Below are positions 43,007 through 52,678 of a stretch of DNA of 64,000 nucleotides, piece after piece. The position numbers were made by a program, and so were the translations under genes. This DNA comes from Poseidonibacter lekithochrous. GTDB taxonomy: Bacteria; Campylobacterota; Campylobacteria; Campylobacterales; Arcobacteraceae. The notes below the pieces were generated by a model. The model saw nothing but the letters and a program-made list of their open reading frames with translations, searched no databases and was not told the DNA's origin. How positions within the stretch are numbered: position 1 is the stretch's first letter; each line of letters begins with the position of its first letter. Location: NCBI RefSeq assembly GCF_018861145.1, contig NZ_JAHKQT010000009.1:62001-126000 (forward strand), given 5' to 3'.

Positions 43007-43507
43007 ATGTTTATTCAACAGCTTAGAAATTTTTTCTTAGTAGTTGTTATTTTTGCTTCTATTTTACTTTCATACCTTTGGTATGACGATTACTCTTTTG
43101 CTTCAAATCCTCTATCAAAAAACATACAAGTAAAAATATATAAAAAGCATCAAGAATTACAATACTTAACATCAAAATATTTTAAAATTAAAAGAGTTTT
43201 TCCTATTATAGTCTCAGATGAATTACCTTCTAGTAGATTTGGAATGGCAGTTTTTTCAAAAGATTCTAAAATAACAATTTATTTAAATAAAAAAAGATTC
43301 AAAGAAAATGAAGATTATATGATAAATGATGTAATGCCTCACGAATATGCACATGCAATTATGTTTGAAATAAGAGATTTTTCTGATGAAAATAAAGGTC
43401 ATTCAAAAAAATGGCAAAATATTTGCAAAAAACTTAATGGATTAAGATGTGATAGATTTGTTAATCATCAAGATATTTTGATTGAAAAAACAAATCTATT
43501 TAAGTAA
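43007..43507 (+). CDS. SprT-like zinc metallopeptidase with membrane anchor
   Basis: A 166-residue protein with an N-terminal hydrophobic segment (about 8-25). The zinc motif HEYAH is at about 112-116 in DVMPHEYAHAIMFE, followed by GHSKKWQNICKKL, the third-ligand region of SprT-like proteases. The fold fits a small SprT-type peptidase facing the periplasm or membrane surface. It is coupled with the J-domain gene in front and ends at a bidirectional terminator. Confidence 0.8.
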   Translation: MFIQQLRNFFLVVVIFASILLSYLWYDDYSFASNPLSKNIQVKIYKKHQELQYLTSKYFKIKRVFPIIVSDELPSSRFGMAVFSKDSKITIYLNKKRFKENEDYMINDVMPHEYAHAIMFEIRDFSDENKGHSKKWQNICKKLNGLRCDRFVNHQDILIEKTNLFK

Positions 43508-47067: not shown

Positions 47068-47829
47068 ATGCAAATAGACGAACTAAAAAAATACAATTTA
47101 TTAAAAAAAACTAAAAAACTAAAACTTGAAAAACTTGAAAATCAAGGAGTTTGTAATATTTTATATAAAATACAAACTCCTGAAAAAAACTATATTCTAA
47201 GAGTTTTTAAATATGCTCATACAAATGAGCAATCAAGAAAAAATGAAATTAGAATCCAAAATAAAGCATTTGAAAAAAATATAGCTGCAAAAGTTTATGT
47301 TCATGATGAAAAAAATTCTTTGATGATTTGTGATTTTTTACAAGGTCATCATAAAGAAAAATTAAAGAAAAAAGATATAAAAGATTTAGTAAAAAGTCTT
47401 AAAAAACTTCATAAAATAAAAATAAAAGATACTCCATATAAGATAGAAGATGATTTTAAAAACTATAAAAAAATACTAAAAGATAAGAAATCAAAACAGA
47501 TTATTAAAGCATCTGTAAAAGAATTAAAAAAAATAAAAAAATATAAGTTTGAAAAAGTTTTATGTCATCATGATTTAAATCAGAACAATATTTTGTTTAA
47601 TAAAAACATAGTAAAGTTTATTGATTGGGAATTTGCATGTGTAAATGATAGATTTTTTGATATTGCAAATATTTGCTTTGAATTTAAATTAGATAAAAAT
47701 GAAGAAAAAATACTTTTAAAAAAGTATTTAAAAAAAGTTAAAAACAAAGATATTAAAAAACTTGCTTCCTATAAAATAGTATATAAAAACCTTTGGAGTT
47801 TGTGGTTTAAAGCCTTAAAACAAAGTTAG
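47068..47829 (+). CDS. Choline kinase/APH-like phosphotransferase
   Basis: A 253-residue Lys-rich protein with the kinase catalytic loop CHHDLNQNNILFN (about 165-177) and the metal motif FIDWEFACVND (about 184-194), as in LicA-type choline kinases and aminoglycoside phosphotransferases. The N-lobe glycine-rich segment is weak (NQGVCNILYKI). LicA-like enzymes act in surface phosphocholine decoration, but substrate assignment is uncertain. It overlaps the convergent SRAP gene by 15 bases. Confidence 0.8.
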   Translation: MQIDELKKYNLLKKTKKLKLEKLENQGVCNILYKIQTPEKNYILRVFKYAHTNEQSRKNEIRIQNKAFEKNIAAKVYVHDEKNSLMICDFLQGHHKEKLKKKDIKDLVKSLKKLHKIKIKDTPYKIEDDFKNYKKILKDKKSKQIIKASVKELKKIKKYKFEKVLCHHDLNQNNILFNKNIVKFIDWEFACVNDRFFDIANICFEFKLDKNEEKILLKKYLKKVKNKDIKKLASYKIVYKNLWSLWFKALKQS

Positions 47830-48522
47830 TTGCCCTACTTCTTTTAACCCCTCTTTTACTTTCTTTTCTTCAACTTTTTTAATACAAATCACCTCATCAA
47901 ATAAAACTTTATTTACTTCATTCGTAACTTCATAAATATCTATCTTTTCATTTGGATATATTTTAAATAAACTATTTACTTCTTTTATATCTTCACTTTT
48001 TAACCAAGTAGTAAAATCTTTCTTTTCTAAGACTATAGGCATGCGATGATGTATTTCCCCTAGTTTTTCATTTGCATCACAAGTTATTAATGCAATTGTA
48101 ACAATCTTCATATTTAACTGCTCATCAAAATACTCATCCCAAATACCAGCAAGTGCTAAATAGTTATTTTTTAAATCACTTACAAGATACGGTATTTTTT
48201 CTTTATCATCTTTTTCCCACTCATAAAAACCATTTATAGGAATGATACAGCGTCTGTATTTAAATGACTCTCTAAAAGTTTTCTTTTCATAAATACTTTC
48301 ACTACGTGCATTTATATTCATAGAAGTCTTTGAACTAGCCCAAGAAGGCAAGTAACCAAAGTGCGCATATAAATAGTTACCATTGTTTAAAAGTGCAGGA
48401 ATTGGAGTTGTAGGGGGAATATTATATCTAGGGTTTAATTCTCCAATCATATCATTTTTGATTAATTCTATTGCATCGTCTTTGAATGCTTTGTCTTTGT
48501 ATATACTTAATCGTCCTGGCAT
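47815..48522 (-). CDS. SRAP (YedK/HMCES-like) protein lacking the catalytic Cys2
   Basis: A 235-residue SOS-response-associated domain protein. YedK and HMCES cap abasic sites in single-stranded DNA through Cys2 of MCGR. Here the N-terminus is MPGRLSIY, with Pro in place of Cys, while other conserved parts remain: PRYNIPPTTP, NARSES near 70, the glutamate in INGFYEWEK near 99 and the histidine in IHHRMPIVL near 160. GGA lies 9 bases before the ATG and no other start restores a cysteine. The C-terminus GQLTLF resembles the beta-clamp binding pentapeptide QL-x-LF, which would recruit it to the replisome. Confidence 0.88.
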   Translation of the reverse strand: MPGRLSIYKDKAFKDDAIELIKNDMIGELNPRYNIPPTTPIPALLNNGNYLYAHFGYLPSWASSKTSMNINARSESIYEKKTFRESFKYRRCIIPINGFYEWEKDDKEKIPYLVSDLKNNYLALAGIWDEYFDEQLNMKIVTIALITCDANEKLGEIHHRMPIVLEKKDFTTWLKSEDIKEVNSLFKIYPNEKIDIYEVTNEVNKVLFDEVICIKKVEEKKVKEGLKEVGQLTLF

Positions 48523-50502: not shown

Positions 50503-52362
50503 ATGCAATTAGAAGAGAAATTAAAACAATTACCAAACGATGCTGGCGTTTATCAATACTTTGATAAAGATGGAAGATTATTATATATTGGAAAAGCTAA
50601 GGTATTAAAAAATAGAGTTAAATCTTATTTTAAATTTACTCCAAAACTACTTCCTTCTGATAAACTAGGTCCTAGAATTTATAGGATGATTAGTCAAACA
50701 ACTTGGATTGAATGGATTGTGGTTCCAAATGAACATGATGCTTTGATTTTAGAAAATTCTCTTATTAAACAACTAAAACCAAAATATAATATTTTACTTC
50801 GTGATGATAAAACCTATCCATATATTTATATAGATTACGCAGAGTTATTTCCTAGACTTGAAATCACAAGAAAGGTTTATAAGAATAAAAATATAAAATA
50901 CTTTGGTCCCTACTCTACAGGTGCAAGAGATATGCTTGATAGTATTTATGAAATAGTTCCACTTGTTCAAAAAAAATCCTGTATTAAAGGAAAAGAAGCT
51001 TGTCTATTTCATCAAATAAAAAGATGTCATGCTCCATGTGAGGATAAAATTTCAACAGTAGAATATTCAAAGATTGTAGATACGGCTATTGATTATATTT
51101 ATAATAAATCAAAACTAATTTCAAAATTAAATGAAAAGATGATGGAATACTCTGAAGATTTTAGATTCGAAGAAGCTATGAAGTTAAGAGATAGAATAAA
51201 AACTATTGAGAAATCTCAAATAAAATCAGGAATGGATTTAGCAACAAACGAAAATCTAGATGTTTTTGCAATAAAAGCTTCAAATAAAAAAGCTGTTGTT
51301 GTAAGAATGTTTATACGTGATGGAAAACTAACTTCTTCTTCTTATGATTTTATAAAAATCAATTTCTTAGATGAAGAATTAAATATAGATTTAAATGAAG
51401 CATATCAAAGAGCTATTATAAACTACTATGATAATGAAATTCCTGTATTACCAAAAGAAGTCTTAACAGGGATAGAAATAGAAGAGAAAGAAGATATTGA
51501 AGAGTTTTTATATAATAAATTCTCTAAAAAAATCAAACTTATAAATCCTAAGAAAGATAAGAAAAAAGACTTAGTTCAAATAGCTTTAAATAACTGTGAT
51601 GAACTTCTTAGAATTGACTCATCAAAAAATCAAAGTACTATATATACAGAGCTTCAAAAACTTTTTTCATTACAAACAACTCCATCAAGAATTGAGTCTT
51701 ATGATAACTCTCATATGATGGGACAAGCAACTGTTGGAGCTATGGTTGTATGGAATGAAGAGCTAAATGCCTTTGATAAAAAGGACTTTAGACATTATAA
51801 TCTTGAATCAAAAGATGAATACTCACAAATGAGAGAAATGCTAATGCGAAGAGTTGATAGCTTTGAAAAGAATCCAGCTCCTGATCTTTGGATACTTGAT
51901 GGTGGGTCAACTCTTTTAAAATTAGCCTATGATATTGTAAATTCAACTGGAGTAAATCTTGATGTTATTGCGATTGCAAAAGAAAAAGTAGATGCAAAAG
52001 CACATAGAGCTAAGGGTGCTGCTAAAGATATAGTTCACTATAAAGATGATAAAGGTGAGTATCGAGCTTTAAAATTAGAAACTAGTGATCAAAGATTACA
52101 ATTTGTACAAAGACAAAGAGATGAAGCTCATAGATTTGTAATAAACTTTCATAAGAAACAAAAACGAAAAGAAGATAAGCAAATTTCACTACTTCAAATC
52201 AAAGGAATTGGAGAAGCTAAAGTGAAAAAACTTCTTTTATATTTTGGTGAATTTGAAAAAATCAAAAGTGCTACAGAACAAGAGTTAACTGAAGTGCTAA
52301 ATAAAAAAGATGCTCTTGTTATTATTGATTATTTTAAAGGTGAAAAAAATCAAAATGAATAG
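50503..52362 (+). CDS. uvrC: Excinuclease ABC subunit C (UvrC)
   Basis: UvrC makes the two incisions around DNA lesions during nucleotide excision repair. The 619-residue protein has the GIY-YIG nuclease at the N-terminus (GVYQYFDKDGRLLYIGKAK, about 15-33), the ACLFHQIKRCHAPC cysteine region near 170, a UVR helix pair near 208-240 (RFEEAMKLRDRIK), the RNase H-like nuclease with ESYDNSHMMG near 402 and WILDGG near 469, and a helix-hairpin-helix end (LLQIKGIGEAKVKKL). All parts are intact. The ribosome site is weak. Confidence 0.97.
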   Translation: MQLEEKLKQLPNDAGVYQYFDKDGRLLYIGKAKVLKNRVKSYFKFTPKLLPSDKLGPRIYRMISQTTWIEWIVVPNEHDALILENSLIKQLKPKYNILLRDDKTYPYIYIDYAELFPRLEITRKVYKNKNIKYFGPYSTGARDMLDSIYEIVPLVQKKSCIKGKEACLFHQIKRCHAPCEDKISTVEYSKIVDTAIDYIYNKSKLISKLNEKMMEYSEDFRFEEAMKLRDRIKTIEKSQIKSGMDLATNENLDVFAIKASNKKAVVVRMFIRDGKLTSSSYDFIKINFLDEELNIDLNEAYQRAIINYYDNEIPVLPKEVLTGIEIEEKEDIEEFLYNKFSKKIKLINPKKDKKKDLVQIALNNCDELLRIDSSKNQSTIYTELQKLFSLQTTPSRIESYDNSHMMGQATVGAMVVWNEELNAFDKKDFRHYNLESKDEYSQMREMLMRRVDSFEKNPAPDLWILDGGSTLLKLAYDIVNSTGVNLDVIAIAKEKVDAKAHRAKGAAKDIVHYKDDKGEYRALKLETSDQRLQFVQRQRDEAHRFVINFHKKQKRKEDKQISLLQIKGIGEAKVKKLLLYFGEFEKIKSATEQELTEVLNKKDALVIIDYFKGEKNQNE

Positions 52363-52678
52363 AAATTTGATAATTACAAAAAGTTATTCACATACTTTTC
52401 ACATAGTTTTAAATTTTATTCATCAAATAAATAACATCTTATATAAAACTGAGTTTTATATTGAACTAAGTAAAAAAACTTACATTTTCCTAACTTCAAT
52501 AAAAACAATAAGAATCCCTATAAATAGGTATTGTAAGACAATTTATATAATAAATAATTTCTTTTTCTATCTTATTAATATATATAATTTATATAATAAT
52601 TTATTTATACAAACTTCTATTTTATGGGCTCTAAAAGAAAATGTGAAAAAGCCATGTGAAAAACTTTTATCTCTATAA
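52355..52678 (+). CDS. Doubtful small ORF after uvrC
   Basis: An open frame of 107 codons from an ATG that overlaps the uvrC stop (ATGAATAG). The product would be rich in Ile, Asn, Tyr and Phe, with a hydrophobic stretch near 70-90 (IYIINNFFFYLINIYNLY), and I recognise no domain. The next gene starts 13 bases after its end. An open frame this long is unlikely by chance in such AT-rich DNA if nothing codes on the other strand, but the amino-acid content looks like untranslated AT-rich sequence. If it is not a gene, 52363-52691 is an intergenic stretch with nothing else recognised. Confidence 0.3.
   Translation: MNRNLIITKSYSHTFHIVLNFIHQINNILYKTEFYIELSKKTYIFLTSIKTIRIPINRYCKTIYIINNFFFYLINIYNLYNNLFIQTSILWALKENVKKPCEKLLSL

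Follow-up and report, generated by a model that had tools for sequence, protein, structure and literature searches.

The literature on SRAP proteins, among them E. coli YedK and human HMCES, presents a long-lived protein-DNA crosslink as the job of the family and Cys2 as its fixed feature, termed 'absolutely conserved' (PMC3765255) or 'invariant' (PMC9436759). In YedK the first nucleophilic attack comes from the alpha-amino group of residue 2 and not from the thiol. Opening of the ring is catalysed by Glu105 and His160, formation of the imine (Schiff base) again by Glu105, and the thiol of Cys2 then closes a stable thiazolidine, although the resulting crosslink is itself reversible (PMC9436759). 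The C2A and C2S mutants of YedK still make a borohydride-trappable Schiff base; in C2A, from which the thiol is gone, no stable crosslink is formed and the DNA strand is cut, and the E105Q exchange slows strand cleavage by thiol-less YedK 25-fold (PMC9436759). A different residue serves at the N-terminus of the Nei/Fpg enzymes, where Pro2 is the AP-lyase nucleophile; in mycobacterial Nei2, which is active on ssDNA, Pro2 is essential for AP-lyase activity, and a P2C exchange abolishes it (PMC11323726).

We describe here an SRAP homologue that stands outside the Cys2 crosslinking class and that may work as an Fpg/Nei-like lyase. It shares with YedK and HMCES the fold, the Asn/Arg/Glu/Thr/His active site and the position of residue 2 at the N-terminus, but carries Pro2 instead of Cys2 and, having no N-terminal thiol, could not chemically form a thiazolidine crosslink. 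The Cys2 that marks YedK/HMCES-type crosslinkers is found neither in this protein nor anywhere else in the clade to which it belongs. Such a proline-fixed clade separates amine chemistry (Schiff base, lyase) from thiol chemistry (stable crosslink), which makes it directly testable which of the two serves cells. The literature searched, outside which most subscription papers lay, yielded no account of a naturally occurring Pro2 SRAP lineage, of a link between SRAP proteins and the sliding clamp or of an Arcobacter SRAP protein.

An SRAP protein that begins with Met-Pro

The gene lies at 47815..48522 (-) of the window, by which we mean the whole 64,000-nucleotide stretch of Poseidonibacter lekithochrous DNA that was analysed, and encodes 235 amino acids plus stop; the reading frame, strand, coordinates and proline at residue 2 of the original prediction were all correct. 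Its product starts with M-P-G-R (MPGRLSIY; ATG CCA GGA CGA) and ends with E-V-G-Q-L-T-L-F, and the second codon, CCA, occupies 48517..48519 (-), the Cys2 position of the family. SRAP (PF02586) is the only Pfam match of the protein (E=1.8e-55; score 188 bits, cut-off 27; profile positions 1-214 of 214 covered), and PF01149, the N-terminal domain of Fpg/Nei, is not among its matches.

The modelled protein has the SRAP fold. Our AlphaFold2 model, computed from 69 sequences (pLDDT 92), replaced an earlier one from 28 sequences that was weak around residues 61-80, and superposes on BT_1218, HMCES and YedK with Z values of 24-28. For 2f20, HMCES and YedK-DNA structures Z is 25-28, and VIA-align gives about 25-26 for the fold shared with YedK and HMCES. 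Residue 2 falls on residue 2 in nearly all of these superpositions, including those on the YedK crosslink (6nua) and on the YedK C2A Schiff base (8d2m).

The original prediction that the active-site Asn, Glu and His are kept holds throughout the 27 full-length Pro2 proteins of our alignment. Asn71 (48310..48312 (-); YedK Asn75) is invariant in the Pro2 and Cys2 groups alike, Glu101 (48220..48222 (-); YedK Glu105) is present in 27/27 Pro2 and 75/75 Cys2 proteins, and His158 (48049..48051 (-); YedK His160) in 27/27 and 74/75, respectively. R4, P37, R73 and T147 are likewise invariant among the Pro2 proteins, the last three corresponding to P40, R77 and T149 of YedK. Other residues go with Pro2 and are specific to its clade, namely L5, H54, F55, C148 and K205, which distinguish the window protein further from YedK and HMCES; H54 stands where most Cys2 SRAP proteins have Arg or Lys.

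Distribution and origin of Pro2

SRAP genes are patchily distributed in the Arcobacteraceae (30 of 104 genomes), and residue 2 is proline in all 30 of the genomes that carry one, the gene start being readable in every case. This start was set by alignment to the MCGR of homologues; the start codons (ATG, TTG or GTG) are found at the same place, and proline is encoded by CCT in 17 genomes, by CCA in 10 and by CCC in three. A sequencing error or a wrongly chosen start is ruled out by this agreement among 30 genomes, and the same genomes with their three proline codons rule out that the Pro2 form is limited to one strain. Each genome, including that of the window, has one SRAP gene, and the only double match is a single gene split across contigs in genome G006. 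The Pro2 form has therefore taken the place of the normal Cys2 protein instead of accompanying it as a paralogue.

Outside the Arcobacteraceae, cysteine occupies position 2 in all 75 distinct full-length SRAP proteins, a set drawn from other Campylobacterota, Bacteroidota, Bacillota, Chloroflexota, Cloacimonadota, viral contigs and others. No Pro2 was seen among the non-Arcobacteraceae members of 80 genome-contig loci, on 12 viral contigs or in further Campylobacterota SRAP proteins, such as L184 and L185, which also have Cys2; 1953 plasmid and 62 phage matches were set aside in this survey. Within the Campylobacterota, where an examination of position 2 had been proposed together with the original prediction, Pro2 is thus found in the Arcobacteraceae only, the other sampled families having Cys2. 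A search of viral contigs with the single window protein gave no match.

Pro2 is fixed across the clade and arose once, from Cys2 ancestors, on a quick tree that we computed by maximum likelihood from 102 proteins and in which a long branch leads to the clade. A branch with a support of 99 sets the 27 full-length Pro2 proteins apart from the rest of the tree; they adjoin the Cys2 proteins of Sulfurimonadaceae and Sulfurovaceae and are nested inside the Cys2 proteins of Campylobacterota, so that a single change from Cys2 to Pro2 suffices.

Probable abasic-site chemistry at an N-terminal proline

We consider it probable, though well short of assured, that the Pro2 protein is an AP lyase with an N-terminal proline of the Fpg/Nei kind, or else a short-lived Schiff-base crosslinker, built on an SRAP scaffold and tethered to the clamp. 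For its chemistry, the removal of Met1, clamp binding and physiology, we infer the following sequence of events. Methionine aminopeptidase would take off Met1, as expected for a Met-Pro start. In ssDNA, the SRAP pocket would, by analogy with YedK, open the abasic sugar with the help of Glu101 and His158, and attack of the secondary amine of Pro2 on C1' would yield an iminium (Schiff base). Without a thiol, no thiazolidine ring could close and no long-lived adduct of the YedK/HMCES kind would result; the adduct would be resolved either hydrolytically or by beta-elimination, the AP-lyase reaction of Fpg/Nei and mycobacterial Nei2. Tethered to DnaN by its QLxLF tail, the enzyme would work on abasic sites where forks or gaps expose them.

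Two described systems lend themselves to comparison. The YedK C2A mutant (PDB 8d2m) likewise has no thiol at residue 2, and its alpha-amine still forms the Schiff base, with cleavage of the strand as the outcome; it is, however, artificial and presents the primary amine of alanine, whereas the window protein is natural and would present the secondary amine of a clade-fixed proline. With Fpg/Nei, including mycobacterial Nei2, it shares an encoded Pro2 that is expected to be the N-terminal nucleophile, abasic sites as probable targets and, in the case of Nei2, a predicted action on ssDNA. The Fpg/Nei fold is unrelated, so that any likeness would be convergent, an analogy and not a homology.

The original prediction had proposed a non-covalent shield or sensor, in which Pro2 fills the pocket without attacking and the protein, carried by the clamp, binds AP-ssDNA. 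Loss of the thiol does take away the stable thiazolidine, and both the DNA-contact residues and a clamp motif are retained. But the first nucleophile, the alpha-amine, is still there, just as C2A and C2S of YedK can still be trapped, and Glu101 and His158, whose counterparts are chemical and not merely binding residues (PMC9436759), do not vary among the 27 full-length members. A purely binding role would not need a strict proline either, yet Ala, Ser or Gly are never seen at position 2. We therefore regard a non-covalent role as unlikely. Since the proline N-terminus keeps a nucleophilic amine next to an invariant Glu and His, covalent but transient chemistry appears more likely, and the strictness of Pro2 together with these two residues points to a transient covalent Schiff base that is then resolved by elimination or hydrolysis.

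Hydrolysis could even be the main outcome. A Pro2 iminium or aminal might guard the AP site for minutes and be released with little strand cleavage, as a short-lived counterpart of the crosslink made by YedK and HMCES. The same retained active-site residues would serve this purpose, the step from an already reversible YedK crosslink (PMC9436759) to faster reversal by loss of ring closure would be small, and a clamp-bound shield would presumably be useful at forks. Against such a reversible crosslinker, which we also hold to be improbable, speak the cutting of DNA by thiol-less YedK and the use of N-terminal proline by lyases in nature.

A degenerating or repurposed SRAP protein that has given up abasic-site chemistry could explain the patchy occurrence of the gene as well as the Arcobacteraceae locus L022:1501-2073 (genome G333), where an in-frame loss of about 45 residues includes His158, and Pro2 and a QQSLF tail are still present. 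We judge this to be very unlikely: the gene is under purifying selection (median dN/dS ~0.20), the catalytic residues of the full-length proteins are invariant, and position 2 is always proline despite synonymous codon change. That another thiol stands in for Cys2, for example the clade-specific Cys148 beside Thr147 (26/27 Pro2 proteins, with Thr there in 66/75 Cys2 proteins), is the least probable of all, as the deepest Pro2 branch (L035) has Ile at this position and the five-membered ring of the Cys2 adduct could not be closed by a side-chain thiol that does not adjoin the attacking amine.

The N-terminal-proline lyase has points counting against it as well. A pocket built for a primary amine might not fit a pyrrolidine, and cutting of ssDNA at forks is hazardous, for which reason hydrolytic release may outweigh cleavage. 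An AP lyase could also be redundant in a genome that encodes other repair proteins, here two HhH-GPD proteins, a PF01261 (endonuclease IV-type) protein and PF03372 proteins. Fpg/Nei (PF01149) was detected in none of the 104 Arcobacteraceae genomes, that of the window included. As this absence is family-wide and extends to the relatives without SRAP, there is no specific co-occurrence, and the finding is compatible with a lyase without lending it specific support. The LexA that would be expected of an SOS-regulated SRAP gene was found above the PF01726 cut-off in 0/104 Arcobacteraceae genomes.

Taken further, an SRAP lineage may have swapped its crosslinking nucleophile Cys2 for an N-terminal proline and become an AP lyase that is tethered to the clamp, specific for single strands and, in bacteria without Fpg/Nei, convergent on the mechanism of that family; we put this scenario forward tentatively, as a serious possibility that falls short of being probable. 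If true, it would be a convergence with Fpg/Nei on an unrelated fold, and an abasic-site 'suicide shield' would have become an enzyme capable of turnover, the key step being the change of residue 2.

The C-terminal tail and the genomic neighbourhood

The protein ends in Q-L-T-L-F (47818..47832 (-)), a motif of the beta-clamp-binding type in an accessible tail, at the extreme C-terminus behind a variable linker that is modelled with low confidence (low pLDDT from about residue 221 on). The likeness to the clamp motif noted in the original prediction is borne out by the consensus QL[S/D]LF (PMC3716654) and by the relatives: 25/27 full-length Pro2 proteins have Q-[LQK]-x-[LF]-F at or no more than three residues from the C-terminus, and the remaining two have SLFDL ends. 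The stretch from VNKV to the C-terminus varies in length between 22 and 32 residues among the Pro2 proteins. The pattern Q-[LF]-x-[LF]-F-stop matches the DNA of the whole genome 48 times, and only the match in the Pro2 SRAP gene ends an ORF of at least 60 aa, which rules out a chance origin of the tail. The same pentapeptide QLxLF, again preceded by a variable linker and placed at the very C-terminus, is found in the clamp binders Pol II (QLGLF) and UmuC (QLNLF) of E. coli; unlike these, the window protein is no polymerase, and its binding to the clamp is predicted from the motif. Attachment of the Pro2 protein to the replisome via DnaN is plausible on these grounds. HMCES is reported to bind PCNA through a PIP motif. 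The clamp motif suggests a route by which bacterial SRAP proteins may reach the fork.

The tail is not an invention of the Pro2 clade, an idea ruled out by LF tails on 23/75 Cys2 SRAP proteins, notably in Bacteroidota and Sulfurimonadaceae, where QQxLF, QGSLF or TLF-type ends occur (L064, L081, L091, L105, L051, L052). The clamp link may consequently be older and wider than Pro2, and docking on the clamp may be common to bacterial SRAP proteins in general, though little described.

On the upstream side of the SRAP gene, uvrC is encoded divergently at 50503..52362 (+) (TIGR00194, E=4.8e-153). This arrangement is conserved in 13/14 Arcobacteraceae loci (L037-L049 and the window), the deepest branch included; uvrC is the immediate neighbour of the SRAP gene in seven or eight of them, and in the window a GGDEF gene lies in between. 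Beside the Cys2 SRAP genes of Sulfurovum and Sulfurimonadaceae (L050-L052), no uvrC was seen. SPRTN clears HMCES crosslinks in animals, and a gene for a SprT-like protease (PF10263) with an N-terminal hydrophobic segment is located at 43007-43504 (+), about 4.3 kb from the SRAP gene, and recurs near SRAP in several relatives. A link between the two proteins is doubtful because the protease looks exported. Finally, a 122-aa frame at 52310-52678 (+) represents a decayed remnant of alr and shares 33% identity over 95 aa with the alr gene that adjoins uvrC in relatives; another alanine racemase, of 391 aa, is encoded on a different contig of the same genome.
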